Shown here in pieces: positions 7,284 through 54,392 of a stretch of DNA of 64,000 bases. The DNA is from a virus. The stretch lies in IMG/VR virus record IMGVR_UViG_3300030390_001111, positions 450-64,449 of that record. One strand, written 5' to 3'. Under the pieces are notes generated by a model that did no database searches, was not told the DNA's origin, and saw nothing but the letters and a program-made list of their open reading frames with translations. The position numbers and the translations under genes are program-made. Within the stretch, counting starts at the first letter, position 1, and each line of letters opens with the position of its first letter.

Positions 7284-8530
7284 TTATATTTCTCCATTTC
7301 CGGAATATTTGCAAAGGTATCTGTGCCTCGTAATCTGTCTAAGTCTTTCGTATACTTGACAAACCAATCCCAATACTTTGTTGCTTCTTCTTCGTTTGTT
7401 TCACGTTTAAGTCCTGCACGTATATCATCAATACCTGTTTGATATTCAAATGTATCAACTCTACTATTTGTAATTGGCCACATTTCCATATTTGGTAAAT
7501 GGTCTATTTTTTCTAATGCTAAATTTTTTAATTCTCGTGGCATGTGTGCAATATTTAAGTATGCAGGATTAACAACAACATTTGTCATGCTTATACTAGC
7601 ACGTTTTCTATGATTTGTATAGAACCAATCCCATACTTGATCTAAATTAAATATGTTTGTAATCATTACTGTTACTGCAAATGTAATTTCAATATTATCT
7701 TCTGCATAAAATTTTTCTAAGTTATCTTCTAAGTCAGACCACTGATACCCTTTGCCTCCACGTATAATACTATACAATTCATCTGTGGCTTCAATACTAA
7801 TTAATAATTCAATGTGTTTAAACTCTTTGAATATCTCTTTGAATCTATCTTCAAATACTGTTGCGTTAGTGCTGATATCTAATGCAATATTTTTACTAAG
7901 TCCGTTATCCACAAACCATTTTAATACATCATAACAACGCTCATCATATAAAGGTTCACCACCACGTAATGCTAGCCATTGTAAATTTCTAAAGTATTCT
8001 GGGTTAGCAAACAAGTTATCCATAAAGCTAAGTTCTGCAACACCATTAAACCCAACTGGTTCTTGTTTCCAGTATACAGGCTTTTCTTTGTTTAGCTTTT
8101 TACCATCTTTGGTCCAACCTGTGCTTACAAACGGCCCACAATGTATGCATGCTAGGTTACATTTATTACTAAGTGTAAAATCAAGATAACGAATATCAGG
8201 TGTGCTATCTACATCAAGTGTTTCACTTTCCATACGTAAATCGTAATCTAGTTTATCCCAGAAATACATACGTCTACTACGGCCACTTTTTTCTTTCTTT
8301 GCACAATTGGCACAATTTTTAGGAATTTCTCTGTTACGATGACTTTGCCGTAATTCTCTATATGCATCTCCATTCCATATTTCTTTCAATGTGCTGTTAT
8401 TAATATCTCCTAGTTTTTCTTTGTAGATAATATCAGGAACAACATTACCTCCCCATTTAATAGTTAATGCATGCCACGGTGCAATGCATGTGGGTAAGTT
8501 TTTCATATCTAAAAATTTATTTCTATACAC
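7280..8530 (-). CDS. Radical SAM protein, N-terminal auxiliary module lacking the CC pair (416 aa)
   Basis: Core cluster C124-C128-C131 (SNKCNLACIHC), then RGGEPL. The N-terminal module keeps C15 (TCIAPWH) and C73/C76 (NCANCAKKE), but the VPCC position of its paralogues reads VPDIIYK, so two auxiliary cluster ligands are lost. The start is a GTG preceded by GGAG at 6 nt and overlapping the upstream stop by 8 bases; ATG 8506 is an alternative. It overlaps the downstream aminotransferase-like gene by 4 bases (ATGA). Confidence 0.88.
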   Translation of the reverse strand: MYRNKFLDMKNLPTCIAPWHALTIKWGGNVVPDIIYKEKLGDINNSTLKEIWNGDAYRELRQSHRNREIPKNCANCAKKEKSGRSRRMYFWDKLDYDLRMESETLDVDSTPDIRYLDFTLSNKCNLACIHCGPFVSTGWTKDGKKLNKEKPVYWKQEPVGFNGVAELSFMDNLFANPEYFRNLQWLALRGGEPLYDERCYDVLKWFVDNGLSKNIALDISTNATVFEDRFKEIFKEFKHIELLISIEATDELYSIIRGGKGYQWSDLEDNLEKFYAEDNIEITFAVTVMITNIFNLDQVWDWFYTNHRKRASISMTNVVVNPAYLNIAHMPRELKNLALEKIDHLPNMEMWPITNSRVDTFEYQTGIDDIRAGLKRETNEEEATKYWDWFVKYTKDLDRLRGTDTFANIPEMEKYK

Positions 8531-9608
8531 ACTCTACTCCACATATATTTTGACATTGTTTCCAGCTTCCAGTGTTTAATGCATCGTTAAGATCTTCAGT
8601 AAACCATTGATTAGTTAATACTTGAGGCAAGCTATATTTCTTAAGATCGTTTTCTACTCTTGCTGCCAAAAATGATTCATCTACCAAACCATCAGTTAAT
8701 GACATACCTTCAATATAAGTTCCCCATAAACTTACATGGCAACACGGCCAAACTTTGCCCCATGGATCAATTTGAACTTGTCTATCATTATACCAAGGAC
8801 ATACTGTATCGTTTTTTCTATTATCTTTTAGTTTATCATTCATATTTAAAAATACACTATGATCACGTAACTCACTCATTCTGTAATGAGCTACACTCTC
8901 TGGTCTATCTTCAAACATAACTTGTTTTTCTTCTTGATCATAATTTGCATGTATTCTATAAGATTCTTCTGGAAGTTCTATTAACAAGTTATCTCCATGA
9001 CTATGCCTTAGTGTAAAATATAATGTATTACATTCTTTAGCAACTGCTTCTACTTGATCTACTTGATGTTTGTTATGCTCAAACAATGTCATGGTTATAT
9101 TTGCTCTACCACCCGCACTGGTAAATGCTTTTACATTTTCTATAATTTTTTTCCAATGTGTTTTTCTTCTATATATAGCGTGAGTGTCTTCCATGCCATC
9201 TACTGCAAATACAATTAAATGGTTTGTAAACTTCCTACATTCAAATGCTAAATCTTCCCAAAATTTGAGAGTTCGCATACTTCCATTGGTATGCAAATAC
9301 AAACTAGTTTCAGGGTGATACTTTGTCCATATGTTTAACATCCCTACTAGTTTTGGATGCATCATAGGATCACCCCAATTACCATTTAGTGTTAGGTCCC
9401 CAATAAACCAACCATGTGTATCACTACTGGCTAAACGCTCCCATACTTCCATATCAAAATGTTCAAGTATAAGTTCGTCTTTAACTTCATCCCCATTTTT
9501 ATTTCGTATACAAGCACCACACCTAGCATTACAATGACTTGTAATATCTACTTGTAGATTTGTTACTTGTTTAGCCCACTTAAACTGAGTGTCGCGCCAT
9601 TTAGCCAA
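8523..9608 (-). CDS. Radical SAM/SPASM protein with C-terminal auxiliary cysteines
   Basis: This has the conventional order. The CxxxCxxC core (HCNARCGAC) is near the N-terminus, a GNWGDPMMHP motif replaces GGEP, and a C-terminal SPASM-like set follows (CPWYND, VWPCCHV, CQNICGVEC). A TTG start at 9608 is preferred: it has an AGAGAGGA Shine-Dalgarno 5 nt upstream and overlaps the amidinotransferase stop by 8 bases. An ATG at 9644 would add 12 residues and a 44-base overlap. It belongs to a different subgroup from the N-terminal-module paralogues and resembles the split gene at 24.1 kb and the gene at 52.7 kb. Confidence 0.9.
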   Translation of the reverse strand: MAKWRDTQFKWAKQVTNLQVDITSHCNARCGACIRNKNGDEVKDELILEHFDMEVWERLASSDTHGWFIGDLTLNGNWGDPMMHPKLVGMLNIWTKYHPETSLYLHTNGSMRTLKFWEDLAFECRKFTNHLIVFAVDGMEDTHAIYRRKTHWKKIIENVKAFTSAGGRANITMTLFEHNKHQVDQVEAVAKECNTLYFTLRHSHGDNLLIELPEESYRIHANYDQEEKQVMFEDRPESVAHYRMSELRDHSVFLNMNDKLKDNRKNDTVCPWYNDRQVQIDPWGKVWPCCHVSLWGTYIEGMSLTDGLVDESFLAARVENDLKKYSLPQVLTNQWFTEDLNDALNTGSWKQCQNICGVECV

Positions 9609-10674
9609 AGTAGTCCTCTCTGTCGCCTTCACGCACCAAGTCACTTGTCAAGCAGTGTATTCCACCGTCCCAAAAGTATTGATGTCTAAAGCGCCACACA
9701 ATAGGCTCAATGCCGTGTGCTTCCATTCTACGAAATGCATCATCATTACGTCCTGTGCATATAACTGTATTTTCATCTAACGATAATACGTTAACATCAA
9801 ATACACTTTCGTCTGCATATCCTACCCAATGTCCAAGCCATTTTTGAACATACTCTTTGTAGTATCTACGTTTACGAGTATCTAAAAAGTCTTGTGGCAT
9901 TTCATGATCGTCATCTACTTCAATTATATCCCAATTTTTAAATTCTTCTGGAACCCATTTTTTATTCCATGTCATTAGCACACCAGGACGAAGCAATGCA
10001 ATTTTACCATCTGCGTGTCCACCTGTTCCAATATCAAGAAACTTAGTGCCCGGGTAACGTTGTGAGATTTCACGTTTCATCCATTCTTTTCCTAGTAATG
10101 TGCCTTTACCTTTTTTATTATCTTCTTCCCATGCTTGTGAAAACAAAATTGTATCTCCACATTTAATCATATTAGCTGCATGGAATAAAACTTTTTGTTC
10201 TGCTGAGTATGTATCGTATCCAATACCTCCTCTTACCATAGCACCGGGCATACTAATCCAGTCGGCCCCACTCTTATATAGCTCTACCATATGTTCGTAA
10301 TAGGCTAAGTTTTCAAAATATCTATTATCTCCGCCTGTAAAACATTCAAATACGCTGTTACCATATGGCATTAGTGTATCACGTGGCATTAGTGGGTGGT
10401 TAGGGAATCCACAACTCATCCAAGGTAATTGTATTTGTTCATCACCATTAATAGTAAAAATATTACTAGGGCGTAATACTTCAATGCCTCTGTCTTCTAA
10501 TAGTTTTGCAAGGACTTCAATATCCTCTTGTGTTTCTGTAAAGATTTGACGCATAGTATCACGTGTTTCTGGATCCTTATGCCAATCAAATGTTTCGGGT
10601 GGGAATGGAGCTCCAAGGATAACCTTCTTTAAAGGTTGAAACTCTGTCCATGCATTAACTGCCGGTGTAGTCAT
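9601..10674 (-). CDS. AGAT-like amidinotransferase 1 (357 aa)
   Basis: The family of glycine and inosamine-phosphate amidinotransferases moves the amidino group of arginine onto an amine through a Cys-His-Asp site. Here the nucleophile is C341 in GGIHCLTSDL, with H220 in GTGGHADGK. The N-terminal LKKVILGAPF and the MPRD segment match the family, and the length is normal. The gene is the first of the minus-strand operon that runs into the radical SAM genes, opposite the plus-strand oxygenases. The acceptor cannot be deduced. A second, diverged copy lies at 17.7 kb. Confidence 0.9.
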   Translation of the reverse strand: MTTPAVNAWTEFQPLKKVILGAPFPPETFDWHKDPETRDTMRQIFTETQEDIEVLAKLLEDRGIEVLRPSNIFTINGDEQIQLPWMSCGFPNHPLMPRDTLMPYGNSVFECFTGGDNRYFENLAYYEHMVELYKSGADWISMPGAMVRGGIGYDTYSAEQKVLFHAANMIKCGDTILFSQAWEEDNKKGKGTLLGKEWMKREISQRYPGTKFLDIGTGGHADGKIALLRPGVLMTWNKKWVPEEFKNWDIIEVDDDHEMPQDFLDTRKRRYYKEYVQKWLGHWVGYADESVFDVNVLSLDENTVICTGRNDDAFRRMEAHGIEPIVWRFRHQYFWDGGIHCLTSDLVREGDREDYFG

Positions 10675-12678: not shown

Positions 12679-13941
12679 TCAAATACCGTCTTGTATGCGT
12701 CGAAACTCAGGTGCTACACTCATTATATCATGTCCACGATGTTTGTCGTAGTTTTGTGTTATAGACACAAATTGCCCCATTTTTTCTTTACTATATTTGT
12801 GATCTGGATCTTTTCCAAAGTTCACTAGTTCCATTAATGGTTCTTCATAGTCTTCGTAATGTGGACTATTATGTATTGATTTTAAAAACTCTAATACTTG
12901 TTTTTCTTGTTCTTTCTTTAACCATTCAGGAGCATGTGCCATACTGTAGTATGCTGGTTCCACTAATTGATTAGTTGACATACCAATACCTCTGTTTACT
13001 GTGCATTGGTAATCATGCATAAACTTCCAAAAAGGAACAATATGTAAAGCATTATGTATTTGATTAACTGTAGTTACTCTTACTTTAATACGCTTGCCTT
13101 GTTTTGTATCTGCAAACTTAACTAACTTATCAAAGTTTTTCCAAACTGAATCCCACTTGGAGGGTGGGCGTAAATAATCATTCATTGGTCCCATACCTTC
13201 AAGTGAGCAGTTTACAATCACTTTTTCAAACTTCCCTAATTGTTCTAGCCAACGATCTTGCATGTTAGTGATGTTGGTATAGAAACTAAGTTCGATGTGA
13301 TCGGCGTGTCCGGATTCTACTGCGAGATCTAACAAAGTAAACATATCCTTTGCAACCGTTGGTTCCCCGCCTATAAGTTTTATTTTACGAGCTTTACCTA
13401 TCATGTCCTTAAAGCTCGCCCAGTCTATTCCAGGCTGAAGAAGAGCCTGCTTCTTGTCTGCAATATTGGAATGCCAATCGGGATGGTCCGCTCCGAGTCC
13501 TTTTTGCACCATGTGTGCTCGCTCAACACTTACTAAATGTGAAGCTTCTTTATTGCACATTTGACATTGTAGATTACACAAATTGCCAAGCCTGAAATCA
13601 AATTGTAAAGGCTGTTCAACCTCCCAATCATTAACGGAAGCGTCAGCAACCACTTCGTCAATTACGTCTTCCCAAACTTCGTTTTCCCATTGCCTAGAAC
13701 TAACAATATTGTTCTTTTCTAAATGTAAACATTCTCTACATTCAGGCAACCATTCACCTTTGGTCATACGTTTACGAACATCTTTAATGTAATCGTGATT
13801 CCATGTTCCGTCGATGCCTAGTTTTTCTTGGTCAACTTTTTCTTTGGGTTCTTTGGCCATGCAACATAACCTATAGCGTCCACCATTATAGGTGCTATAT
13901 TGAACAAAAGGTAATGCACAAAAGCCGTTATCTGTTTTCAT
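12679..13941 (-). CDS. Radical SAM protein with N-terminal SPASM-like cysteine module (420 aa)
   Basis: Core cluster C122-C126-C129 (GNLCNLQCQMC) with IGGEPT. The N-terminal module has C8 (FCALPF), C26-C27 (RLCCMAK) and C68/C71 (CRECLHLE). The SSRQWE segment after the module is shared with the 415- and 476-aa paralogues. It overlaps the upstream 2OG oxygenase by 4 bases (ATGA), which suggests the oxygenase and radical SAM steps are linked. Its codon usage looks slightly more GC-rich than its neighbours around 13.1-13.5 kb. Confidence 0.9.
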   Translation of the reverse strand: MKTDNGFCALPFVQYSTYNGGRYRLCCMAKEPKEKVDQEKLGIDGTWNHDYIKDVRKRMTKGEWLPECRECLHLEKNNIVSSRQWENEVWEDVIDEVVADASVNDWEVEQPLQFDFRLGNLCNLQCQMCNKEASHLVSVERAHMVQKGLGADHPDWHSNIADKKQALLQPGIDWASFKDMIGKARKIKLIGGEPTVAKDMFTLLDLAVESGHADHIELSFYTNITNMQDRWLEQLGKFEKVIVNCSLEGMGPMNDYLRPPSKWDSVWKNFDKLVKFADTKQGKRIKVRVTTVNQIHNALHIVPFWKFMHDYQCTVNRGIGMSTNQLVEPAYYSMAHAPEWLKKEQEKQVLEFLKSIHNSPHYEDYEEPLMELVNFGKDPDHKYSKEKMGQFVSITQNYDKHRGHDIMSVAPEFRRIQDGI

Positions 13942-15083: not shown

Positions 15084-16280
15084 TTAATCTCCTTCTACCA
15101 TATAATTAAAATATGGATATTGTTCTAAAAATTTAATTGGTCTAAAACTATCAAGATAATCTACAAAAGCAAGAAATTCTCTATTATGTTTGCCCATAGA
15201 AAACTTAGTGTTTCTAATGCTATTTATAAAGTTCATATTGTTGCCACATTTATCCCAACCTTCTAATACCAATTTACATTTTTGTATTTCTTCTTCAATT
15301 ATATCAGGTTTAATTCTACCTATATGAAGATAATCTTTCTCTCTTTGGCCTTTGTAGACTAGACTTGGATTAATTTGTATATCATGCTGTTTAGCAAAAG
15401 CATACAATTTATGTAGTCCTACAAAATTCATAATATGTAAACAAGGATTGAGTTCAACCATACAGTTATCTTCTGCATTTAGTTCAGCATATTTTATAAC
15501 ATTTCTTTCTAATACAGACCATTTGTTTGGGTATCTTGCATATTCTACTATTTCCTCTACTCCATCTAAACTTATCTGCATTGATAGTTCTCTAAAACTT
15601 TTTAGCATTTCTAACCATTTTGATCTAAATACAGTGCCATTGGTTAATATACGAAGTCTAATATTTTTACTGTAATTATTTTCAGTCAACCATTCAAGTA
15701 TATTAGTAACCTGTGGCATAAGCAAAGGTTCGCCTCCTGCTAATAATATCTCTTTAACATTAGCTATGTTTGATTTCATAAACTCATAGTAACTATCTTC
15801 TTCTTTTAGACCACAAGGTTGATTTAATCCTGTTGTTACTTTAAATTTTTTTGTGTATGTTTCTACTCTTGAACTAATTGCTGAACTGTTTTCTGGATTA
15901 CACATAACACATTCTAGATTACAATAATTGCTTGGTCTTAGATCCCAATAGATTGGATTATCAACAATTACTTTTTTGTTATTGTAATAATAATCAGTTT
16001 CTTTGCTAAATTCTGCGTTGTGGTATTGTCGTTTACTTTCAATGCCTGCCTTTTCATCATCTACGCATATGCTACATTCTTTTGGCATTTGTCTGTTGTT
16101 AAATGATTCTCTGACTTTTTGATATTCAATACTATTCCATAGATCTTTGGCAGTGGAATATCCTTGCTCAAAGCCTCCTTGCCACTCACAACAAGGTCTG
16201 TATTCTCTTTTTAACCCATGCCAGTGTCCATAAATTCCTGTAAATGGTAATACACAAAAATTATTCATCCTTTGGTTCAT
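15084..16280 (-). CDS. Radical SAM protein with N-terminal SPASM-like cysteine module (398 aa)
   Basis: Core cluster C120-C124-C127 (SNYCNLECVMC) with AGGEPL. The N-terminal module has C9 (FCVLPF), C30-C31 (RPCCEWQ) and C69/C72 (ECSICVDDE). ATG 16280 and ATG 16268 are both possible; the second gives an 8-base overlap with the upstream stop, more like the other junctions. It lies between the nucleosidase and another radical SAM gene. Substrate unknown. Confidence 0.9.
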   Translation of the reverse strand: MNQRMNNFCVLPFTGIYGHWHGLKREYRPCCEWQGGFEQGYSTAKDLWNSIEYQKVRESFNNRQMPKECSICVDDEKAGIESKRQYHNAEFSKETDYYYNNKKVIVDNPIYWDLRPSNYCNLECVMCNPENSSAISSRVETYTKKFKVTTGLNQPCGLKEEDSYYEFMKSNIANVKEILLAGGEPLLMPQVTNILEWLTENNYSKNIRLRILTNGTVFRSKWLEMLKSFRELSMQISLDGVEEIVEYARYPNKWSVLERNVIKYAELNAEDNCMVELNPCLHIMNFVGLHKLYAFAKQHDIQINPSLVYKGQREKDYLHIGRIKPDIIEEEIQKCKLVLEGWDKCGNNMNFINSIRNTKFSMGKHNREFLAFVDYLDSFRPIKFLEQYPYFNYMVEGD

Positions 16281-17691
16281 CTAACAGGTATGCCATTTCT
16301 GGGAATGTTTTACGAAAGTCTGTTCCACGCATTCCATCTAACTTAGTTAAATATTCTCTAAATTCAGGTAAACGTTGGCTCCAGTCTTCACTACGTGCAA
16401 AACTAATCATACCACGTAAACGTTTAATTCCATAGCTTGCATCTAACCATTGTTGTTTTGTTACTTTACCCTTGTGCCAACTTGGAACACCTAGTTCCCA
16501 ATTCTCACTCCACCATTCAATGAATTCTTCATACTTGGCTTCTGTTTTATCTAAGAACTCGTCTGGTAACACTTTGACATTTAAGTGTCCTGGCCAGTAT
16601 ACAAAGTGATAGTTAATACCACCTGCACCAAATGGCCACATATTTGTTTTATGTAATCCACTTTCTGTTAGTTTCCATTTAAGGAAATCTGGAATATAAT
16701 GAATGTTAAGAGCGTTAACGGCACATGCAATTGTAACTTCTACATTGTTAGTTGTTTCAGTATCTAAACGTTTAAACATTGCAAGTTGATGATCCCATTG
16801 ACTTGGATATCTAATATAATCATTCATAGCACCAATGCTATCAATACTATAATGGAATCTTACTTTCTTATAATGTGACCATAACTCTAATAGTCTATCT
16901 GGTAGTTCAATTCCATTTGAATTATAACGAACTTCTATATCTGCAGCATAGCCCATTTCAATAACTTTTTCTAAGATCTGGTAATGTTCTTCAATAACTG
17001 TAGACTCACCGCCTGCAAAATATAGCTGACGCATGTATGGAATTTGTGCATAAAATTGATCCCAAAACTCTGGATTGTCTTTGTGCCAATTATAACTAGC
17101 ACCAAATTCTTTTCCTTTGTTTTCCCAAACCATAGTTCCTTTAAGGCTTTCGTTTGTAATTTGTGGATACAGTTTATTCCAATCTTTTATCCACCCTGAA
17201 CTATCATGTGGGCTACACATAACGCACCCCAACTGGCATTTCGTCCCCATACGGATATCAATATACCGTAATTTACTATCAGTGCTTCCATCTTCGTATG
17301 TTTCCTTTACAAGCTCGTCAACATTAATACCGTTGTTCATCCAGTATTGCGTTTCCCATTGACGTTTTGATCTGTGCCCTGCGGCTTCTTCTTTAAAACA
17401 TTTTAAACAACTTGCTGGCTTTTCACCTTTAAGCATCATTTGTCTTACACTTCGCATGTATGTATTATTCCATGCTGTATTTAAATCTGTTGTATTTAAG
17501 TTAGCTGGTTTGCCATCTTCTGTTTTAACAATACCTACTCTTCCACCATGCACTTTATCGTTTGTAGCACCTACACTACTAGCATTAGCTGTGCAGCATA
17601 CTCGCATACTGCCGTCTGGTCTTGTTGAAAGGTGAATCCAAGGTAGTATACAAAATGTTTCTGATGGAGTTGGTAAGTCGTGTTCGCTCAT
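16261..17691 (-). CDS. Radical SAM protein with N-terminal SPASM-like cysteine module, longest form (476 aa)
   Basis: Core cluster C152-C156-C159 (GTKCQLGCVMC), then AGGEST in place of GGEP. The N-terminal module has C14 (FCILPWIH), C32-C33 (RVCCTAN) and C95/C98 (SCLKCFKEE); the interval between these is about 25 residues longer than in the paralogues. CILPW and RSKRQW are the clearest family signatures. It starts 4 bases after the stop of the second amidinotransferase gene. Confidence 0.9.
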   Translation of the reverse strand: MSEHDLPTPSETFCILPWIHLSTRPDGSMRVCCTANASSVGATNDKVHGGRVGIVKTEDGKPANLNTTDLNTAWNNTYMRSVRQMMLKGEKPASCLKCFKEEAAGHRSKRQWETQYWMNNGINVDELVKETYEDGSTDSKLRYIDIRMGTKCQLGCVMCSPHDSSGWIKDWNKLYPQITNESLKGTMVWENKGKEFGASYNWHKDNPEFWDQFYAQIPYMRQLYFAGGESTVIEEHYQILEKVIEMGYAADIEVRYNSNGIELPDRLLELWSHYKKVRFHYSIDSIGAMNDYIRYPSQWDHQLAMFKRLDTETTNNVEVTIACAVNALNIHYIPDFLKWKLTESGLHKTNMWPFGAGGINYHFVYWPGHLNVKVLPDEFLDKTEAKYEEFIEWWSENWELGVPSWHKGKVTKQQWLDASYGIKRLRGMISFARSEDWSQRLPEFREYLTKLDGMRGTDFRKTFPEMAYLLDEPKDE

Positions 17692-23966: not shown

Positions 23967-23995
23967 AGTATACAGTAAGACGTCTTACTTGTCAA
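23967..23995 (-). promoter_or_regulatory. Sigma70-type promoter with palindromic operator in the spacer
   Basis: TTGACA-17 bp-TATACT. The spacer holds AGTAAGAC-GTCTTACT (23974-23989), a perfect 16-bp palindrome. The same arrangement recurs before the subtilisin gene at 39.5 kb with two base changes over about 37 bp, so it is very likely the site of a shared regulator. Confidence 0.85.
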
Positions 23996-33092: not shown

Positions 33093-33989
33093 TTATGTTC
33101 CCCATGCGTTTCCAAAGAGTGAGATGTGTAAGCGTGGGGTGAATCTCCAGCCCCTTTCCATGCAGATTTCTGCAACTTCTTGGACGTTAAGATTATATTC
33201 TTCACTGCGACCACCCAGCGGCATAAGATACACAGGGCATTCCAAGCCTTCTTTACGATATGCCTTGACAGCTCTATCAACATCAGCAATATCCTCACCG
33301 TCAGCAACAACAAATTTAAGATAGATATCGCTGTTATCCACAAGACTGTAGTTGACAGCAACCTTAGGCTTAATAGCATCTTCCCAAGATTCTCCCGATA
33401 CTGTGAGCTTGGGTGAACAACTCCATGTGACTTTAATTCTGTCACTGTTGTTGAGATACTTGAATAAATCGTCGTGTAAAAATTGTGTAGTGTTTGTTTC
33501 AAATGTAACATTCTTTAAATCTCCCATACGTGGATGTTCAAATAGTTCTACATAAAGTCGTTGCCACGCTAACAACGGCTCACCACCGGTCATAATTAAA
33601 TGGATGTCTTGTCCATTATCACATGTCCACTTGCCTTCTGGAGTTAAACTTAACAAGTGATTTACTACTTCGTCTACTTCTGCAAGTTTATTAAAGTCTT
33701 TAAACTCAGGATAGATACTTGCATAAGTGTCACAGCCTGTATGTATAATAGGCAAGTCTGTAAATTCTGTTACTGTATCAGTAATGCCACCATCAATTAA
33801 ATCTTTTACTTCTTGATTGTAACGATTACCAGCTTCATGCTTTTCAGCTCTGCTAGGTTCATCTCTACTTAGTCCAAAGTTCATACAACGAAAGTTACAT
33901 CCAAATGTGCGTAAAAACACACTAGGAACACCTACGTATTGTCCTTCACCTTGCACACTATAAAATGCTTCTGAATATCTAAGTTTCAT
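33093..33989 (-). CDS. queE: QueE-like 7-carboxy-7-deazaguanine synthase (298 aa)
   Basis: A radical SAM enzyme that turns carboxytetrahydropterin into CDG in the preQ0 pathway. The N-terminal SVQGEGQYVGVPSVFLRTFGCNFRC, MTGGEPLLAW and the C-terminal RLHISLFGNAWGT are typical. Cluster Cys are C31 and C35, and the third is probably C86 (TGCDT), so about 50 residues are inserted between the second and third ligands; bacterial QueE has a short insert there. Works with FolE and QueD at 42-46 kb. QueE overlaps MazG by 11 bases. Confidence 0.92.
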   Translation of the reverse strand: MKLRYSEAFYSVQGEGQYVGVPSVFLRTFGCNFRCMNFGLSRDEPSRAEKHEAGNRYNQEVKDLIDGGITDTVTEFTDLPIIHTGCDTYASIYPEFKDFNKLAEVDEVVNHLLSLTPEGKWTCDNGQDIHLIMTGGEPLLAWQRLYVELFEHPRMGDLKNVTFETNTTQFLHDDLFKYLNNSDRIKVTWSCSPKLTVSGESWEDAIKPKVAVNYSLVDNSDIYLKFVVADGEDIADVDRAVKAYRKEGLECPVYLMPLGGRSEEYNLNVQEVAEICMERGWRFTPRLHISLFGNAWGT

Positions 33990-35900: not shown

Positions 35901-36116
35901 TTAACACCCTGAGTCAAATGTGGTTCTCTCTTGTAGTTTTTTAGCTTGATCTTCTTGCCTAGGACGTTCTAGTTTATTAATAAGTCCTAGTATTGAGTTT
36001 GCAAACTCTTTACGTCCCTCAAATATATCTTCGGTTCCGTCTGTTAGTCCTTCAACTTTATCATCAAGTTCTTCTTGGCAAACTTGCTTTAAAATATCTA
36101 TTGTATGGTCTGTCAT
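35901..36116 (-). CDS. Small acidic protein (71 aa)
   Basis: Helical, Glu/Asp-rich, no known motif. Starts at an ATG overlapping the thymidine kinase stop (TAATG) and precedes the PRPP synthetase start by 4 bases. Unknown. Confidence 0.65.
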
Positions 36117-36673
36117 TATCTACTCTCCCAATGTTCGTGGCAACGTGGTTCGTATGTCTCTGCGCCGCCTATTGTTACTCTACCGCCACTTTTTCTAAGT
36201 CGCTGTGTTTTACTGCATGGTTGTCCACATACGTTACAAAATGCAGTAATCTTTGCTATACCGTCTGCTAATGCTAATAAACGGCCTGTTGTATCAAATG
36301 GTATTCCTCTGCTGTCTTGATCAAGTCCTGCACATACAAAGTTAACACCTTCTCTTAATCCTTCTTCTACAAACCATAGTGCTTCTTTAGGATCAAAGAA
36401 CTGCACCTCATCAATGAATACTGTATGAAAGTTGTAGGGTTTAATTGTGTAATTATCTTTTACTAATTCTAAATCAATAACACTAATAGCAGGGTGACTA
36501 AGTTTATTATGTGTAACAATCTTATCTGGGTCATACCTATCGTCTACTAATGGTTTTAGGACTAATGCTTTATGTCCTGAATGTTCTAAAAAGAGCAGTC
36601 GCTTTAATAACTCACTGCTCTTTCCTGCAAACATTGGGCCTGCAATGACCTCTAGTTCACCTCTTTTATACAT
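36116..36673 (-). CDS. tk: Thymidine kinase (185 aa)
   Basis: Type II thymidine kinase: P-loop GPMFAGKSSE near residue 13, VFIDEVQFF near residue 88, and a zinc-binding CNVCG plus a later Cys. Phosphorylates thymidine for dTTP synthesis; common in T4-like phages. ATG 36673 overlaps the subtilisin stop by one base. Confidence 0.96.
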   Translation of the reverse strand: MYKRGELEVIAGPMFAGKSSELLKRLLFLEHSGHKALVLKPLVDDRYDPDKIVTHNKLSHPAISVIDLELVKDNYTIKPYNFHTVFIDEVQFFDPKEALWFVEEGLREGVNFVCAGLDQDSRGIPFDTTGRLLALADGIAKITAFCNVCGQPCSKTQRLRKSGGRVTIGGAETYEPRCHEHWESR

Positions 36674-39489
36674 TAAAAGCTCCAATTAAAGTTAATACCA
36701 GCTGTAGTAATTGTTTCATTTGTTCCAGCATAGTTTAAACGTGCTTCTGCATGTGCTTTAATTGACATGTTATCAGTAACATTAAAGTTACGAAACACAC
36801 CAAAGTCTATTTCACGCTTTGTTGCACTTAAATCACTATTGCTAGTTACATAGTCTACATCACCGGTTGCACTAACTGTGCTTGCTGATTTGAATGTTGC
36901 ATTACCATTTGTAATTGCTACTGGTAAACTTGTTACAAATCCAAAATCACCTGTTTCAACATTACGTTTAATACCTAACGTTGCACTATTACTTATCAAG
37001 TCACTTGCATCAGTCATCATACTGTTACCTACATTTAGTTTTGTAACACCAAACATTGCATTACCAAACAATGTAACATCGTTTGTTAGTGCTTTATCTA
37101 AGTTATAACCTGCATAAAACGTAGTTGCTCCATTAACATCCATAAGTGAATTGTCTGCAACATTACCAAGGAAACTGTTACCTTCTGTAACTGCACCAAA
37201 CATAAACTTATCTACAGTTGTAGCAAATGCTATACTATCTTCGTTAATATTAAGAGCACCTGTTTCCATTGGAATAACTTGTCCATTACCATATCCAAAG
37301 TAATAGTCTGGAGCAAATCCTACACTAGCCGCTTGTGTTGTATCTGCTGAGCGTGTATCTGCAACACCAATCATGTTGTTACCATCTACATAAAAGTTAC
37401 GATCAAAATCATCAACAACCATTAAACTTGAGATACTACCTAAATGCACTCCACCACTCATTGCAAATGCACCCGAGTCTAAACTACTCTTGGCACCATC
37501 AATACGTCCACTAGTTGGAATACCTACGACACCTTGTGGACTAGTTGCTTCATCTAAATCAAGCATACCTTGTCCATGCGTGTTTACATCATATCCATTA
37601 ATGTCTTTGTTCGCTGTTTGTAACAATAGTTGAGTAATGTTCTCGCCTTTCATATATGGCCACATTTGGTGAACAATACCTACTGCACCTGTGACTGCCG
37701 GAGCTGCCATTGATGTTCCGCTATTAGTTCTATATTCTCCATTTGCACTTGTTGATGCTACATAACGACCTGGTGCTAAAAGATACCAGTCACTAATTCT
37801 ATGATCGTTTGCACACTCTCCGTTAGCACCAAAACACATTGTTCCTGCCTTGTTACTTGAGTTTGATATCTTATTTGTTTTAAGATCCCATGAACCAACT
37901 ACTAATGCTTTACCGCCTAATAACAATTCGCCATCTTCGTTGGCCGCAATTGCATAGTGAGCCGGGAATGTTGGAACATCCATACGTTGGTTACCTGCGG
38001 CAAATACAACAACTGTTTCAGTATCTGACATAGCATCTGTAATTTGTGGTAACATATAATCATCATCACTTGCTAAGTATGAATATCCATTTGTTTGGTA
38101 TACACCATCAAATCTTGTGTCGGTGCTACGAAATACTCCATCACTAACTGCAACAATACTTTTCTTATGCTCTCTGTCAACGTTATAGTTACCCGATACA
38201 TTTACTGCATCAGCACCATTATTAGTTGCCCATTCAATACCTTTACCTAATATTTGAAAATCATAGAATCCATTATCGTCTGCAACCTTACCAATAAGTA
38301 GTTTGGCATCCGGTGCTACACCTGTTGTGCCTACACCATCTAAGTTTGCCGCGGCAATACCTGCAACATGTGTTCCGTGTGAGTATTTGTTTTTGTCATC
38401 TATAGTTTGGCTTTCGCCCATGTCAATTAATCTTTGATCATTGCACATAGCTGTAAAACATTTACTATCAATAATTTTACCTGCAAACTCTGGATGGTCC
38501 ATATCAATACCAGTATCTAGTATTGCTAATACACTACCTTTACCTGTCCAACCTTTTGCCCAGGCATGTGGTGCTTTAATAGTTTCTAGACTGTTACCGT
38601 TGTTAATTAATCCACTGTCACGTGTAATATAATCTACATTAACATTAGGATTCATAACATGAACTGCATCAATATATGTTTGTGTTCCACCTAAATTAAC
38701 ATCGTCTCTTGCTAAGTATTCTTCTACTGTTAATACGTTGTCCGTTACAACACCTAAGCCATCGCTTACGTTAACAACGACAACTGGTTCTTCAACAACG
38801 ACAACTGGTTCTTCAACAACCTCTACAACTTCAATAACTTCTTCAACAACTTCAACAACTTCAACAGGACGTTCAAGTTCATATGTTCTAACAAAGTTAC
38901 GTTCAGTTTCAGTTCGTGTTATATCTTCTACATTTGTAGCAACCAACTCTGTGCTAACTTCTGTAGAGGTAGACCCATCACTCCAATGCGTTGTAGTGAA
39001 TGTGCCTTTATGCTTTTTTGTTGTAACTGTTTTTGTAAATGTGATTACAACATCTTCGTATACACTAACTGTATAATCTTCTGTTGTTTCTGATTCTGTA
39101 GATGTGCGTGTAGAAACTTCAGGTGTTTCTGTAACTGCCTCATGTTCATTGTATGTGTATGTTTTGTTAACTTCAGTAACTTCAATTACTTGTTTTGCAC
39201 CAATTAGTTCTTCAAATCGATGTATCTCAGTTTCATAAAAGTTCACTGTTTCAACTAGCGTTGCGGCCCAACTGTATTGGCCGTATTTCTCTGCTAGTGG
39301 TTTCAATGATGCAAGACCATTTCTGTATGATCTCATCATATTTTTTGCAAAAGTATTCCGAGACTCAATATTTGTTATGTTTGACACCATATCATAGTAA
39401 CTAAATGGTGCCGCATATGTTGGCAACGCAACAAACGACAAAGATATTACTGCAATAACAGTAACTATTGCTTTTCTTACAGTATTCAT
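36673..39489 (-). CDS. Secreted subtilisin-like (S8) protease with C-terminal beta-barrel-like region (938 aa)
   Basis: Signal peptide (VTVIAVISLSFVALPTYA), a Thr/Glu/Val-rich stalk with EEPVVVV repeats (residues ~100-245), an S8 domain with D325 (AILDTGID), H371 (SHGTHVAG), oxyanion N500 and S593 (GTSMAAP), then a strand-rich ~250-residue C-terminus ending in Phe (INFNWSF). This is the layout of an autotransporter protease. Start ATG 39489 has AGGAG 8 nt upstream. The palindromic promoter before it suggests strong, controlled expression. A complete secreted protease is rare in a phage; possible roles are host-envelope cleavage, lysis or surface change. Confidence 0.92.
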   Translation of the reverse strand: MNTVRKAIVTVIAVISLSFVALPTYAAPFSYYDMVSNITNIESRNTFAKNMMRSYRNGLASLKPLAEKYGQYSWAATLVETVNFYETEIHRFEELIGAKQVIEVTEVNKTYTYNEHEAVTETPEVSTRTSTESETTEDYTVSVYEDVVITFTKTVTTKKHKGTFTTTHWSDGSTSTEVSTELVATNVEDITRTETERNFVRTYELERPVEVVEVVEEVIEVVEVVEEPVVVVEEPVVVVNVSDGLGVVTDNVLTVEEYLARDDVNLGGTQTYIDAVHVMNPNVNVDYITRDSGLINNGNSLETIKAPHAWAKGWTGKGSVLAILDTGIDMDHPEFAGKIIDSKCFTAMCNDQRLIDMGESQTIDDKNKYSHGTHVAGIAAANLDGVGTTGVAPDAKLLIGKVADDNGFYDFQILGKGIEWATNNGADAVNVSGNYNVDREHKKSIVAVSDGVFRSTDTRFDGVYQTNGYSYLASDDDYMLPQITDAMSDTETVVVFAAGNQRMDVPTFPAHYAIAANEDGELLLGGKALVVGSWDLKTNKISNSSNKAGTMCFGANGECANDHRISDWYLLAPGRYVASTSANGEYRTNSGTSMAAPAVTGAVGIVHQMWPYMKGENITQLLLQTANKDINGYDVNTHGQGMLDLDEATSPQGVVGIPTSGRIDGAKSSLDSGAFAMSGGVHLGSISSLMVVDDFDRNFYVDGNNMIGVADTRSADTTQAASVGFAPDYYFGYGNGQVIPMETGALNINEDSIAFATTVDKFMFGAVTEGNSFLGNVADNSLMDVNGATTFYAGYNLDKALTNDVTLFGNAMFGVTKLNVGNSMMTDASDLISNSATLGIKRNVETGDFGFVTSLPVAITNGNATFKSASTVSATGDVDYVTSNSDLSATKREIDFGVFRNFNVTDNMSIKAHAEARLNYAGTNETITTAGINFNWSF
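38771..38870 (-). repeat. Short tandem repeats coding for Val/Glu-rich stalk
   Basis: A 21-bp unit (CAACGACAACTGGTTCTTCAA-like on the plus strand) occurs twice in tandem, followed by shorter related ACTTCAACA steps. It codes for the EEPVVVV and VVEVVEE repeats in the stalk of the S8 protease. Confidence 0.7.
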
Positions 39490-39527: not shown

Positions 39528-39556
39528 AGTATACAGTAAGACATCTTACTTGTCAA
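39528..39556 (-). promoter_or_regulatory. Sigma70-type promoter with palindromic operator, copy 2
   Basis: TTGACA-17 bp-TATACT with AGTAAGATGTCTTACT (39535-39550) in the spacer, differing at one centre base from the perfect palindrome at 23.97 kb. The flanks from the -10 box to beyond the -35 box are also nearly identical. Drives the S8 protease gene. Confidence 0.85.
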
Positions 39557-39564
39557 CCAGTTTT

Positions 39565-40128
39565 TTACGTATTATTGTAAAATTCATATGTTTCTTTAAT
39601 AATACCTGTATCTTCTAGTGTATTTTCTAGTGTTTTACGCCCATATTCCACACGATATAGTAACTTATCTCCATCAATATCAACTAATGCTAAGTTTAGC
39701 AAATGATGACTAAAGTTTTCTTCTTCCAAATATCCTGTAAAAAACGTGCCTTTTCTATCTCTAACACCTTTTAAATAACAACCTTTTCCAAGCGAGTTAC
39801 ATTCCATTGTAAATCTTACTGATTCATCAATGCTACTTGTTTTAAATACTTCATTGCCATCTTCGTCAGTAACATGCACATGTATATGACTTGGACGTGG
39901 ACCAAATACCTCTATAAGTCTATCACGCTTTGATTTTGCCATTCCAAGAAACAATGGATCTTCTTCATCGCTTATTGGGTTGTCTGGGTGTTCACCATAG
40001 GAATCTTCAAACAAATGTCTTTTTGTATGTTCTGCATCTTGTTTATTCCAAAATTCATATTGTTCTAATGTTATGCGTCTTATATGTAAATTTGCACCGT
40101 ATCCGTTTACTACTATTTTATATTTCAT
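39565..40128 (-). CDS. Paralogue pair member, unknown (187 aa)
   Basis: Same length and plan as its upstream neighbour: [KT]I.[VI]NGYG....L..[IL]T.EQY[ED]FW near the start and similar central acidic and HVTDEDGN/EVTDDSGN strands. A tandem duplication of a protein family I cannot name; similar unnamed proteins occur in marine T4-like phages (from memory). Confidence 0.75.
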   Translation of the reverse strand: MKYKIVVNGYGANLHIRRITLEQYEFWNKQDAEHTKRHLFEDSYGEHPDNPISDEEDPLFLGMAKSKRDRLIEVFGPRPSHIHVHVTDEDGNEVFKTSSIDESVRFTMECNSLGKGCYLKGVRDRKGTFFTGYLEEENFSHHLLNLALVDIDGDKLLYRVEYGRKTLENTLEDTGIIKETYEFYNNT

Positions 40129-40688
40129 ACCATTTCATATAGCTCAAAACCCTGACCTTTTCCGGTTGTCCCGTCCATGTCATAGTCAAGCTCTTCTCCG
40201 TCATATTCAACTCTTGAGATTATATTATCTCCTTCAACGCTGGTTACATAAAATCTTAATTTAGCAGAATCAAAATTATCTGTTTCAATTTCTGCTATAT
40301 AAAAATTACCTTTTTCTGAAGTCCATCCTTTAAAATAATATCCAGGATCTTGATCATCAACATCTAATGTTTCTGTCTTAACTATTTTAGGTTCTTCTGT
40401 TTCCCATACTGTATTGCCGCTATCATCTGTAACTTCAATATGACACATATCTACTTGAGCACCATTAAGATGTTCAATACTGTCAATATCATGCCAGTAT
40501 CCCAAAAACCTAGGGTCATCAGGATCAGTAACAGGGTTACCTTCATCTTCTTCATATGGGTCCCAAAATAAATGACTGTTCATGCTGTCATCATCTTGTT
40601 TATCTACCCAAAAGTCGTATTGTTCTTTAGTTAACTTACCCAATACAACTTCACCGCCATAGCCGTTAATTGTTATTTCATAAGTCAT
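40125..40688 (-). CDS. Paralogue pair member, unknown (187 aa)
   Basis: Second copy of the pair (MTYEITINGYGGEVVLGKLT). It is more acidic than its neighbour and has Trp-rich segments (YFKGWTSEKGNFYIAEIE). Overlaps both neighbours (4 and 11 bases). Function unknown. Confidence 0.75.
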   Translation of the reverse strand: MTYEITINGYGGEVVLGKLTKEQYDFWVDKQDDDSMNSHLFWDPYEEDEGNPVTDPDDPRFLGYWHDIDSIEHLNGAQVDMCHIEVTDDSGNTVWETEEPKIVKTETLDVDDQDPGYYFKGWTSEKGNFYIAEIETDNFDSAKLRFYVTSVEGDNIISRVEYDGEELDYDMDGTTGKGQGFELYEMV

Positions 40689-42247: not shown

Positions 42248-42946
42248 TTACTTGGCTGCAAAATCTGATTGAAGTTTAATGTTATCCATAAACTCTTCTT
42301 TTGTTGCAGGGTCATTTTTAAATGCGCCTTTAAGAACTGTGGTTTGTGTTAAACTGCTATGTGCCATAATGCCTCTATTCTCACAACAACCATGTGTTGC
42401 TTGAATATAAACACCTACATTTTCTGACTTAGTTGCTTTCATAATCTCACGTGAGATATCCATAGCAAGTTCTTCTTGTAGTGTTCCACGTCTTGCACAC
42501 CATTGTGCGATACGTGTATACTTCGATAGTCCAATAAGTGTATCAGCGGCAATAATGCCAATGTATGCTACACCTGTTACTGGTTGGTGATGATGTGAAC
42601 AAACACTTTTAAGTTCACTTCGCACAACCAACATTCCATCATAACATTCATTTGTAATGTTATCTGGATCATTAGGAAATGCTGTTGCCGGTGGAGCGGT
42701 TTCGTATCGCCCTGCCATTAATTCATTGTAATACATTTTAGCTAAACGCCTACCTGTATCCATGCTGTTAGGATCTGTTTTCCTATCAATAATTAATGTA
42801 TCTAATACTGTTTCAAAGGCAACTGCGGCCTCATCAATTAGTTTTTCTTTGTCACCGTTTTGTAATACTTGACTGATGTTATCACCAGCCCAATATCTAA
42901 TGCCTGCTTCTTCTAATTTGTTTCTTATTTGTTCTGCTTTTCCCAT
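42248..42946 (-). CDS. folE: GTP cyclohydrolase I (232 aa)
   Basis: Converts GTP to dihydroneopterin triphosphate and formate, the first step toward preQ0 and folate. Zinc ligands are present in CSHHHQPV (C116, H118/119) and THGCCENRG (C187); LSKYTRIAQWCARR and LQEEL are also typical. Some conserved positions differ (CSHHH for CEHH), but the site looks complete. Lies upstream of the GalE, QueD and DpdA genes of the deazaguanine set. Confidence 0.94.
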   Translation of the reverse strand: MGKAEQIRNKLEEAGIRYWAGDNISQVLQNGDKEKLIDEAAVAFETVLDTLIIDRKTDPNSMDTGRRLAKMYYNELMAGRYETAPPATAFPNDPDNITNECYDGMLVVRSELKSVCSHHHQPVTGVAYIGIIAADTLIGLSKYTRIAQWCARRGTLQEELAMDISREIMKATKSENVGVYIQATHGCCENRGIMAHSSLTQTTVLKGAFKNDPATKEEFMDNIKLQSDFAAK

Positions 42947-46808: not shown

Positions 46809-48308
46809 TTAGTTCAAACCTTCTAAGAATTTTTCTGCATCTTCGGCATCATTTTCTGTAAAGTCTGCATCTCCTTGGTCACCCCAACTTGCGTCAAACA
46901 AGTTATCAAATGCACTTGCACTAGTTTTAATACTTTTTTGACCACTAAAGTCAGCAAGCATTGGTTGTGCTTCTTCTAACATTTGCATTGGAGTTTCACT
47001 TTTAAATAGTTCATTGATAAAGTTTACTATATAAATTGTGTTACGTGGAATCCATGTATCAAACTCATCAATCTTCTTACCAGCTCTAACTTTTTGCCAA
47101 TGTTTATGACTAGTATTATATCTGGTTGTAGCAACATCTGTTAATGCATTTGCATTTTGAATACTGTCAATATGCATATAAACATTGTGTGCCATCATTA
47201 AGAAGTAACTAAAGCTATCCCAACTTGTTTTACCTTCTTTGCCAACTTTGTTTAACATACCTGGCTTATACCAACATATATCTCCCATTGTAAGTCTGTC
47301 TGCAATAGGTCCGTTGAACGGAAACTTCATGTCATAGTTTCCTGCAAAACATTTGTCGTCAATAGCACCTTCCATTACATAACCAAATTTGTCACTACGC
47401 ATATTATTGCTAGTATACATTTGACCTTTAGCTGTAGTAATAAAAGGACTGGCCGCATCAAAAGTAACCATCATGTTCTCATTTACATGCTCACGTAAAT
47501 TACGTTGAATAGCTGTAAATACACAACTCCAATCAAGTTTTGCTGTTCCAAGATAGTGAATTAAATCTTTACCTGGGTCCAACATCTTTTCATCACGCAT
47601 AACAATAAGTCTACGTAATATTAGATGCAACTGTTTCATGTTGTAACCAGCCATTGCCCAACCCTCAAATGGATAGTGCTTGACTGCTTCATACCAAATG
47701 TCAGCGGTGTGTTCATCATTACCTTGTAACACATTCATAAACTTAGTCTTACCTTGTCTGTTACGAACAAAGTAATCGTTGTTAAACATTGTGTAGTCTA
47801 AACAATCACCAAAGCTCTTTAGTCCAGTTTTTTCACTAAGTGGTGGAATTGCTGCCAGTGTTGGAATATCTAACACCATACTATAATCTGCTGTGTGTTC
47901 TAGCCAATTAAGAATAGTGCTACGCAACTTGTCCTCAGTTTTAAAGTTAGCCCAATCCATTTGAATTACGCCTTTAGCAATCTGGAAACCTCCACTATCG
48001 CCTAAGATAAAACTTTTGTTTCTGTCACGTTTTTGTATCATGCATTCTTGGATATCGCTTTTAGCTGTATCAAGAGTAGCATGACCGGCTGAGTATAAAC
48101 CCCATTTGTAATTGTAGTAAGTGTCTATATCTTTTAAAAAGTCACAACCATCAATCCCATGCTCGAAGCCGTTAGGCATACGTTCATTACTTAGGTAGTT
48201 AGGATCTCGTCTTTGATTGCTAATTAGTTTGCTATAGAAACTGCTGATGCTAGGCAGGAATACTGCATAGTCTTTGTTTTTTGTTGTGAGGTCTACACTT
48301 GGAATCAT
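46809..48308 (-). CDS. dpdA: DpdA-like / tRNA-guanine transglycosylase superfamily base exchanger (499 aa)
   Basis: The TGT superfamily signature GDSGGFQ (D104) and the nucleophile-type Asp in TFDAASP (D284) are present, with LVLDIPT and MAGYNMKQ between. The CxCxxC...H zinc site of tRNA TGT is not evident, and the protein is longer than TGT (~380 aa), as in DpdA enzymes that swap guanine for preQ0 in DNA. With FolE, QueD and QueE encoded here it probably modifies phage DNA against restriction. It lies directly after the sliding clamp gene. Confidence 0.85.
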   Translation of the reverse strand: MIPSVDLTTKNKDYAVFLPSISSFYSKLISNQRRDPNYLSNERMPNGFEHGIDGCDFLKDIDTYYNYKWGLYSAGHATLDTAKSDIQECMIQKRDRNKSFILGDSGGFQIAKGVIQMDWANFKTEDKLRSTILNWLEHTADYSMVLDIPTLAAIPPLSEKTGLKSFGDCLDYTMFNNDYFVRNRQGKTKFMNVLQGNDEHTADIWYEAVKHYPFEGWAMAGYNMKQLHLILRRLIVMRDEKMLDPGKDLIHYLGTAKLDWSCVFTAIQRNLREHVNENMMVTFDAASPFITTAKGQMYTSNNMRSDKFGYVMEGAIDDKCFAGNYDMKFPFNGPIADRLTMGDICWYKPGMLNKVGKEGKTSWDSFSYFLMMAHNVYMHIDSIQNANALTDVATTRYNTSHKHWQKVRAGKKIDEFDTWIPRNTIYIVNFINELFKSETPMQMLEEAQPMLADFSGQKSIKTSASAFDNLFDASWGDQGDADFTENDAEDAEKFLEGLN

Positions 48309-52424: not shown

Positions 52425-52751
52425 TTAAAACACTCCAGGATCCTTGTGTGGATTAGCCGAATGATTTAGAGTGTTGTTTACTTCTAACATTGATGACCCT
52501 GCGGCCTGCAATGCTTCTTCGCAACTTGATGGTAGCTTTTCTCCGTTGTATGTTTGATCAAACGAATTAAGAAATGCATCTTGTATATTTTGATCTACTT
52601 CTTGTTTCTCAAAAACTATTTGTATATTAGGTCGTAGCTTTTTAAACTCTGGAATATCTTCTTCACATACTTGCACAATTCCTCCTGCCATACTGCCTAT
52701 AAACATAGCCTGTATAACATTTGATAGTGCATTAACAAATGCATCTATCAC
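52425..52751 (-). CDS. Hypothetical protein (108 aa)
   Basis: Hydrophobic N-terminal helix (NVIQAMFIGSMAGGIVQV), then an acidic helical body with two Cys. It overlaps the radical SAM/SPASM gene by 4 bases. Not recognised; may be a partner protein. Confidence 0.65.
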   Translation of the reverse strand: MIDAFVNALSNVIQAMFIGSMAGGIVQVCEEDIPEFKKLRPNIQIVFEKQEVDQNIQDAFLNSFDQTYNGEKLPSSCEEALQAAGSSMLEVNNTLNHSANPHKDPGVF

Positions 52752-53839
52752 GTAAACTGCTCCGCAAATGGATCAAACTCTGTTCCACATTTCATACTGC
52801 AAACACCTAGCTTACCTTCTTCAATACTTTTCTTATTCCAACTGTGTTGTATGTCTTGCATAATTCCTGTTTCAAATACACCTTCTACTCCATGTATCCT
52901 TGCATCAAGGGCCTCTTTACCACCAACTGCATCTATGAAGTCCCATATTTGTTCTACTTTTGGATCTTTGTGCCACCACTTATACATACGTCCGGCAGTC
53001 CAACAGCAAGGTAATACAAGTCCTTCTGCTGTAATAAAGATGTTAGGATCTTTACCTGCTACTTTACATTTAATATCACAGCTATCATAATACTTTTTCA
53101 TACTGCCATATGTTTTCTTAATTTCTTCTGTCTTAGCTAATGCAAGGTTCTGGTGCTCTGCTTTCTTGGGCTTTGCTAAGTTTTGCATTGTAGCACCTTT
53201 ACGATTAGTTGCTTGGTGTGTTTCTTTTGTTTCACTGTCAGAAGTAATAAAGCGTCCAGTTTTCTTTTTCATAAACTTCTCAACGCCCCATTCTTTGGCA
53301 AGTTTTTCTGCACGTTCTACATCACATTCACTGTGTTCAAATATCAAGTAATCCCATCTAGCTCTGCCTCCGGCTTCAATGAAAGCTCGCATGTTACGTT
53401 CTACTTTATCCCATTGCACACCTTGTCTATACAAATGGTTTGTGTTCTCTAATCCATCTACACTAAAGATAACTGCACCGTTCTTGCCAATAGTTTTAGC
53501 AAGTTCTTGCCACCATGTAACATCTCTTGCGCCTGCGTTAGTGTTCATGCTTAACCATATGTTGTCATTCATTGCACGGGTGTAATCAAATATTTCTAAT
53601 GTATCTCTAGCACTAATTGGATCACCTAAGTTACCACACATGTATAATACTTTTAATTGCTGTAGAAAGTCTGGATCAAATATGTTAATACAATCATCTA
53701 AACTTAGTTCTTGTAAGTTGTTTTTGATATGCTGATTTACTGCTCCACCATTCTCATTACGATCACACATAGGACAACTAGCATTACAACGTTGTGTAAC
53801 TTCTAAGTGAACTGTGTTTATATCTTTATAATTATACAT
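52748..53839 (-). CDS. Radical SAM/SPASM protein (363 aa)
   Basis: Core cluster C18-C22-C25 (QRCNASCPMC) and CGNLGDPISA in place of GGEP. A central Lys-rich insertion (MKKKTGRFITSDSETKE) is followed by C-terminal SPASM-like cysteines (CDIKC, LPCCWTAGR, CSMKCGTEF). ATG 53839 starts just after the upstream stop. It sits with MIP18, SufE and an oxygenase, and is the paralogue group of the genes at 8.5 and 24.1 kb. Confidence 0.9.
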   Translation of the reverse strand: MYNYKDINTVHLEVTQRCNASCPMCDRNENGGAVNQHIKNNLQELSLDDCINIFDPDFLQQLKVLYMCGNLGDPISARDTLEIFDYTRAMNDNIWLSMNTNAGARDVTWWQELAKTIGKNGAVIFSVDGLENTNHLYRQGVQWDKVERNMRAFIEAGGRARWDYLIFEHSECDVERAEKLAKEWGVEKFMKKKTGRFITSDSETKETHQATNRKGATMQNLAKPKKAEHQNLALAKTEEIKKTYGSMKKYYDSCDIKCKVAGKDPNIFITAEGLVLPCCWTAGRMYKWWHKDPKVEQIWDFIDAVGGKEALDARIHGVEGVFETGIMQDIQHSWNKKSIEEGKLGVCSMKCGTEFDPFAEQFT

Positions 53840-53840
53840 G

Positions 53841-54392
53841 TTAGTAATTATTCCAATTAGGTAAACCTTTAGGCCACGTAATGTTTGGATTTGGTATGTA
53901 TTCAACATATTGATTTTCTGGTATAGTTCTAATTACTTTACCATAGTCATCACCTGGAACACTTCCCCATTTCTTACATAACTGTAGCCACTGATACCAA
54001 TCAAAATTAGTATGAGGGAATATACACTTTGCATACCACCCATCTTTGTTGACTACATTTTCCCATGGTGCTTGCGTCCAATCAAATTGTCTAATTGCTT
54101 CTCTTATTTCTAAGACAGTAAGATTACAAAATGGACTGTATTCCACCTTGGGCAATTTAAATCCAAATTCTTCACAGCATACTTCATACTCAACTGTAGC
54201 TGGATTCATAAACGGATGCACTGCATATACAATAGGTCTACTAGAATCATATCCTTGCATTTCATTGCATTGTTTTAAATAATGTTTAAGTATACTTTGA
54301 TAATGAAAATCCCAATTTGGATAAACCTGAGTCCTACCCATTAAAAAGTTATGAGTGCAATAATGCCCGTGTATGTATACGTTGTTATCCAT
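53841..54392 (-). CDS. Hypothetical protein (183 aa)
   Basis: Begins MDNNVYIHGHYCTHNFLMGR and has many Trp, Tyr, Cys and His (five Cys, many His). No family recognised. It may be an SPT-like or metal-binding enzyme, but nothing proves it. Directly upstream of the radical SAM/SPASM gene. Confidence 0.6.
   Translation of the reverse strand: MDNNVYIHGHYCTHNFLMGRTQVYPNWDFHYQSILKHYLKQCNEMQGYDSSRPIVYAVHPFMNPATVEYEVCCEEFGFKLPKVEYSPFCNLTVLEIREAIRQFDWTQAPWENVVNKDGWYAKCIFPHTNFDWYQWLQLCKKWGSVPGDDYGKVIRTIPENQYVEYIPNPNITWPKGLPNWNNY

Follow-up and report, generated by a model that had tools for sequence, protein, structure and literature searches.

An autotransporter-like subtilisin with a predicted outer-membrane barrel in large phages

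Gene, domain layout and promoter

The DNA analysed here (the window, 64,000 nucleotides) is part of a 72,801-base IMG/VR virus record, and on its minus strand, at 36673..39489, an open reading frame, a PF00082 match and an AlphaFold2 model define the gene of what we call the S8-barrel protein. The frame encodes 938 aa and runs from an ATG at 39489 to a TAA at 36675-36673, with AGGAG 8 nt ahead of the start codon and an alternative in-frame GTG 9 nt upstream of the ATG. The protein begins with an export signal at residues 1-27 (MNTVRKAIVTVIAVISLSFVALPTYAA, judged by eye), after which the AlphaFold2 model places a helical stretch (residues 32-95), a beta stalk (residues 106-204) and a Val/Glu-rich segment of low confidence (residues 207-250), with 19 Val and 11 Glu among the 38 aa of residues 206-243. 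The S8 domain occupies residues about 300-650, and a linker (residues 651-736) leads to a barrel predicted by the same model at residues 737-938. The reading frame, the triad D325/H371/S593, the Val/Glu stalk, the strand-rich C terminus and the terminal Phe were all found where the initial annotation had placed them, and the signal peptide that it proposed is apparent by pattern and by eye, the N terminus reading as a cleavable export signal. The observation of an S8-barrel protein on a phage genome was confirmed.

Regarding the protease domain, Peptidase_S8 was the sole Pfam family above its cut-off in the window protein, and PF00082 matched residues 316-634 with an E-value of 7.4e-41, scoring 140.8 bits where the cut-off is 21.8. 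In an alignment of 64 sequences, S593 and the oxyanion residue N500 were conserved in every row, and D325 and H371 in all 63 rows that reach them, one row being truncated. The description of the protein as a subtilisin with a full S8 triad was thus borne out by the Pfam match and the invariant catalytic residues; on these grounds, the protein is assigned to the S8 family and proteolysis is predicted.

The gene appears to have its own promoter. A sigma70-like sequence, TTGACA-17-TATACT, which agrees with the consensus at 11 of 12 bases, lies at 39528..39556 on the minus strand, and an exact-pattern search located an operator-like palindrome, GTAAGA-NN-TCTTAC, in its spacer (39536..39549, minus strand). 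Exact copies of this palindrome (GTAAGANNTCTTAC) occur in the window only at 23975 and 39536, in both cases inside a -35/-10 spacer. The second of these promoters (23967..23995, minus strand) is located upstream of an AAA-ATPase/DUF2201-VWA gene pair, the products of which matched the Pfam families AAA and DUF2201. In four related phage records, all 10 exact copies of the 14-mer AAGAYRTCTTACTG sit in a promoter spacer, and a control search with the reversed palindrome, allowing up to one mismatch, returned 0 or 1 matches per record in ten records. When up to three mismatches were allowed, the palindrome gave 33 matches in the window against 35.8 expected, which is not above chance. A promoter match of at least 10/12 was present in 37 of the 56 upstream regions of the family, several of which are nearly identical and hence not independent, compared with a mean of 3.0 (maximum 9) in 100 shuffles. 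The 11/12 match and the recurrence in related phages upheld the earlier proposal of a dedicated promoter with an operator-like palindrome, and the recurrence of the palindrome points to a putative operator.

The C-terminal domain and its comparison with known systems

The full protein, modelled by AlphaFold2 from 28 sequences, had a mean pLDDT of 78.6, with predicted strands at residues ~737-936, for which the block pLDDT was mostly 78-92 and 55 in one block. Among the matches listed by Foldseek for the full model, subtilisins were dominant and the Ssp autotransporter passenger (8e7f) appeared at rank 48; therefore, the barrel was modelled and searched alone. The C-terminal part (residues 650-938; 36676..37542, minus strand) folded by itself as an outer-membrane-type beta-barrel (pLDDT 81.7, pTM 0.75), and both models contain about 12 strands, a number that rises slightly when the segments of two interrupted strands are counted separately. 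Foldseek with the isolated barrel gave weak barrel matches (best E-value 1.8e-4, TM 0.2-0.4). Among the 50 matches listed by VIA-align, 132-210 residues aligned with outer-membrane barrels of known structure at Z scores of 9.4-11.9, and every match was an outer-membrane barrel or a BAM component, porins included; the autotransporter EspP (Z 11.2 and 11.0) was tied with porins. Hydrophobic alternation over the predicted strands gave an overall score that only 8 of 5000 shuffles reached, and it was near zero in 3 of the 12 strands.

The last strand (TTAGINFNWSF; 36676..36708, minus strand) resembles a BAM-type beta-signal when viewed with the C termini of the family. The window protein ends in AGINFNWSF, with the terminal Phe of such a signal, and Phe or Trp is terminal in 50 of 62 distinct complete C termini, with Gly at position -8 in 44 of those 50. 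The remaining 12 lack a terminal Phe or Trp, nearly all through extra residues after the barrel, and residues trailing the barrel are unusual for BAM substrates. A conserved tail, KHGLVYDxxTDxFxPI, was observed after the barrel in L006, L039, L051, L091 and similar relatives. The initial annotation had named a model with no barrel among the outcomes that would count against it; an outer-membrane-type barrel was obtained in the model, and the C-terminal domain is accordingly described here as a predicted outer-membrane beta-barrel of about 12 strands.

Group 15 of the type Va autotransporters, which comprises the subtilisin-like NalP, SphB1, EprS and Ssp (PMC9289746), has an export signal or lipidation, an S8 passenger and a C-terminal outer-membrane barrel, and the phage protein shows an S8 domain with a predicted export signal and a predicted barrel. 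However, the phage barrel is unrelated by sequence to PF03797, the protein is phage-borne, the joint between S8 and barrel is about 85 residues long and lacks a beta-helix, and the stalk precedes the S8 domain. Pfam scans of 28 members at E-values up to 1 listed PF03797 for none of them, and HHalign comparison of the phage barrel profile with three PF03797-type proteins returned a probability of 0.1%. A classical autotransporter in terms of sequence was rejected on this lack of similarity. The NCBIfam model for the EprS autotransporter was matched by 28 of 28 members; the score of the window protein was 92 bits against a cut-off of 1700, far below it, and so the protein was not called a member. 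Neither AlphaFold2 model contains a helix of more than 6 residues between the S8 domain and the barrel, and no beta-helix was found in the S8-barrel protein. The term "autotransporter-like" in the initial annotation is supported for an exported S8 protease with a predicted outer-membrane barrel and is not supported by similarity to PF03797, and the models show neither a long linker helix nor a beta-helix; the interpretation was correct in outline and is partly supported.

A closer counterpart was found among bacterial S8 peptidases. HHalign aligned the phage barrel with their C-terminal domain over 171 columns with a probability of 99.0% and an E-value of 2.6e-18, and, judging from this profile comparison, the two are homologous. 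The bacterial domain has no name, no Pfam model for it was found in the five bacterial proteins scanned, and comparison of the bacterial C-terminal set with PF03797-type proteins was also negative. Its profile was matched in 31 of 398 sampled genomes from the phylum of the Hylemonella metagenome-assembled genome (MAG) discussed below. The bacterial S8 peptidases (L105, L106, L108, L115 and L120) resemble the phage protein in having a signal peptide where the N terminus is complete, an S8 domain, a conserved D-x-x-x-R linker motif, the homologous C-terminal domain and a terminal Phe. The few that were read differ in lacking the long Thr/Val/Glu stalk and the poly-Gly lipobox of the phage type, and a tree that was midpoint-rooted with no outgroup separates the bacterial S8 domain from the phage group, which has a support of 0.31. 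Should the reading proposed below be correct, these results point to an outer-membrane barrel family that is common to phages and bacteria and lacks a Pfam model.

Relatives, carriers and gene neighbourhood

The initial annotation regarded such a protease as unusual on a phage genome and proposed a search for homologues in phages. A one-off oddity it is not, as relatives are widespread in uncultured large phages. A single-sequence search yielded 15 viral loci; four were full-length, and their best segments were 61-77% identical. A profile search recognised 118 of 137 candidate stretches on viral contigs as relatives, and the best 80 of these were carried forward. Under a motif filter, 17 loci, including L096 and L097 (studied separately), had no open reading frame; L098 and L099, from Paenibacillus, were excluded, and 63 distinct proteins were kept. 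For cultured phages, no record among 50,697 reached 80% coverage of any of the three proteins compared (the window protein, L036 and L053). The S8-barrel protein belongs to a widespread, as yet unnamed phage protein family, of which A0A6J5TBB6, a Peptidase S8/S53 domain protein from an uncultured Caudovirales phage and the best match among viral models (BFVD; E-value 7e-14, TM 0.66), is probably a database member; it differs in being shorter (689 aa), and its name covers the protease only. The S8 proteases of Bacillus and Staphylococcus phages (e.g. SP-15) are 28% identical in the S8 domain only, and belong to phages with Gram-positive hosts; the match includes no barrel.

By pattern, 40 of 58 distinct complete N termini carry a lipobox, often followed by poly-Gly, and 16 have a signal-peptide-like N terminus; the other 2 have neither and may represent wrong starts.

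The carriers include large phages of the T4 superfamily. In 13 carrier records, Gp23 was found in 5, a T4-type portal in 4 and a terminase in 4. The window's own record had no Gp23, portal or terminase match; the RNase H/exonuclease encoded in the window shares 55% identity with its counterpart in Pseudomonas phage PA5oct (287 kb). Contamination by a host gene was rejected on the basis of the neighbourhood conserved in most of 60 loci and the phage hallmark genes in several carriers. Pseudomonas phage Y5 (OQ572407.1, L104) was also considered as a phage relative and rejected, its record being unverified and its S8 protein being of the classical type and located beside bacterial-type genes; at this spot, the record may consist of host DNA.

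The gene immediately downstream (36116..36673, minus strand) encodes what we take, from its P-loop motif, to be a thymidine-kinase-like protein, and belongs to a family (family 24) present in 10 of the 60 loci. Its ATG overlaps the stop codon of the S8 gene (TAATG), which suggests that it is probably translated together with the S8 gene. With neighbours named from the members in the window and counted over the 60 loci that remained after duplicate removal, a GTP cyclohydrolase was present in 33, a phosphoribosyltransferase in 46 and a QueE-like gene in 45, such that the S8 gene is located among genes for nucleotide and deazaguanine metabolism in most loci. The neighbourhood differs in nine loci that form a second subgroup, and the neighbours in the subgroup of L006, L039, L051, L091 and similar relatives include Clp-like ATPase, virion-structural-like and tail-assembly-chaperone-like genes. 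The latter two would suit a particle-borne protease that aids passage through surface layers at entry; however, export signals and lipoboxes, a beta-signal and a barrel are ill-suited to a part of the virion, as are a dedicated promoter and the metabolic neighbourhood of most loci, and we regard a virion-associated protease as highly improbable.

Other genes in the window were also of interest. Just upstream of the S8 gene, two adjacent 187-aa genes (39565-40128 and 40125-40688) belong to one family, which is present in 17 of the 60 loci. Nine radical-SAM genes were recognised with PHROG (3382-4629, 4629-5840, 7280-8530, 8523-9644, 12679-13941, 15084-16280, 16261-17691, 33093-33989 and 52748-53908), an unusual concentration for a phage record, and the two scanned with Pfam both have SPASM domains. 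The genes at 33093-33989, 42248-42946 and 46809-48308 comprise QueE-like and GTP-cyclohydrolase genes (PHROG) and a third that is DpdA/TGT-like by eye and gave no Pfam or PHROG match; this trio suggests 7-deazaguanine modification.

Proposed role at the cell surface and exchange of the passenger

The reading that we favour, and consider somewhat more probable than its negation, is that the S8-barrel protein is an autotransporter-like, outer-membrane-anchored subtilisin that is made during infection, displayed on the host surface and cuts envelope proteins. Host RNA polymerase would transcribe the gene from its own promoter, and Sec would take the product across the inner membrane, many relatives being lipidated instead. 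The host BAM machinery would then fold the C-terminal domain into the outer membrane, and the S8 domain, on its stalk, would be shown at the cell surface, where it may cut exposed host envelope proteins. The gene, its triad, the predicted barrel and beta-signal, conservation across the family and the promoter-like sequence come directly from the analysis; export by Sec, insertion by BAM, the topology at the surface, proteolysis and its target, the timing and the benefit are inferred. In bacteria, a C-terminal motif is recognised by the Bam complex, which inserts the barrel ahead of passenger translocation (PMC3297439), and the lipidated NalP and SphB1 stay surface-bound and process other proteins located there (PMC9289746). 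If this reading is correct, it provides a testable mechanism for the alteration of host cell surfaces by large phages.

To our knowledge, phages are not generally described as putting a proteolytic enzyme of their own into the outer membrane of the host, and we found no report of a phage-encoded autotransporter in the open-access literature. The benefit would lie in an altered surface of the infected cell, for example through the removal of phage receptors (superinfection exclusion) or the shedding of surface proteins. Superinfection exclusion in phages is known to include receptor inactivation, as performed by Cor (PMC11436027); the word "protease" is absent from the text of this review. We consider surface alteration the most likely benefit, followed by the digestion of external protein for nutrition. 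In the latter case, the displayed protease would digest dissolved or particulate protein outside the cell and feed phage production as an auxiliary metabolic gene, which is consistent with carriers that are large phages rich in metabolic genes and with bacterial homologues that resemble ordinary exported peptidases. However, the gain in peptides for a single tethered cell during one infection is, by reasoning, probably small, and there is no peptide transporter among the named neighbouring genes; we consider nutrient acquisition quite improbable.

The models also bear on the side of the membrane that the protease faces. Since no long helix passes through the pore, the S8 domain could face the periplasm, with the barrel, and in lipidated relatives the lipid, tethering it inside the envelope, where it would degrade periplasmic or incoming proteins such as misfolded envelope proteins or the entry proteins of a competing phage. 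The lack of a long helical linker in the AlphaFold2 models favours this arrangement, as do the barrel and lipid anchors, both of which would hold the enzyme inside in the many relatives with a lipobox. On the other hand, surface autotransporters likewise have the passenger ahead of the barrel and a beta-signal at the C terminus, and the swapping of passengers on the same barrel, described below, fits display better; a periplasm-facing protease appears unlikely.

Returning to a protease displayed at the surface, its barrel was also found with a different passenger. The barrel profile identified a bacterial locus (L109) with FG-GAP repeats where the S8 domain would be, and the FG-GAP form is also present, with 71-73% identity, on three viral contigs, one of them 221 kb long. 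The viral FG-GAP frames have a lipobox at the start and NLAF at the end. In a BLASTP comparison, L127 (FG-GAP) and L013 (S8) were 30% identical over 322 columns (E-value 4e-36), the alignment starting at the last helix of the S8 domain and taking in the barrel; profile comparison of the FG-GAP form with the barrels of the window's group was weaker, with a probability of 48%. L127 had no match among the 50,697 phage records. An FG-GAP propeller replacing the protease on the same barrel suggests a display chassis. We tentatively raise the possibility, to which we give rather less than even weight, that large phages possess a general chassis for surface display, composed of either an export signal or a lipobox, together with a variable stalk, a passenger that can be exchanged (mostly a subtilisin, in some an FG-GAP propeller) and an outer-membrane barrel lacking a Pfam model, that its early switch-on from a dedicated operator-bearing promoter rebuilds the surface of the infected cell, and that such genes have moved back into bacterial chromosomes. 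With relatives in more than 100 other phage sequences, these phages may refashion the surface of infected cells.

A profile search of 84,980 bacterial and archaeal genomes gave 23 candidates, only four of which were relatives: two from Hylemonella MAGs and two Paenibacillus proteins that match part of the S8 domain only. Bacterial relatives were found within the order, class and phylum of a Hylemonella MAG, the groups covered by targeted searches. The tree of S8 domains puts both MAG copies next to phage L016 with a support of 0.978, this nesting alone being well supported. The S8 copy in L096 sits among ordinary bacterial genes, which suggests the transfer of an S8-barrel gene from a phage to a bacterium, although both MAG copies come from metagenome bins. 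At 13619-14230 of L096, about 3.7 kb from the S8 copy, there is a P-loop gene that is phage-like by eye and is possibly a second phage-derived gene.
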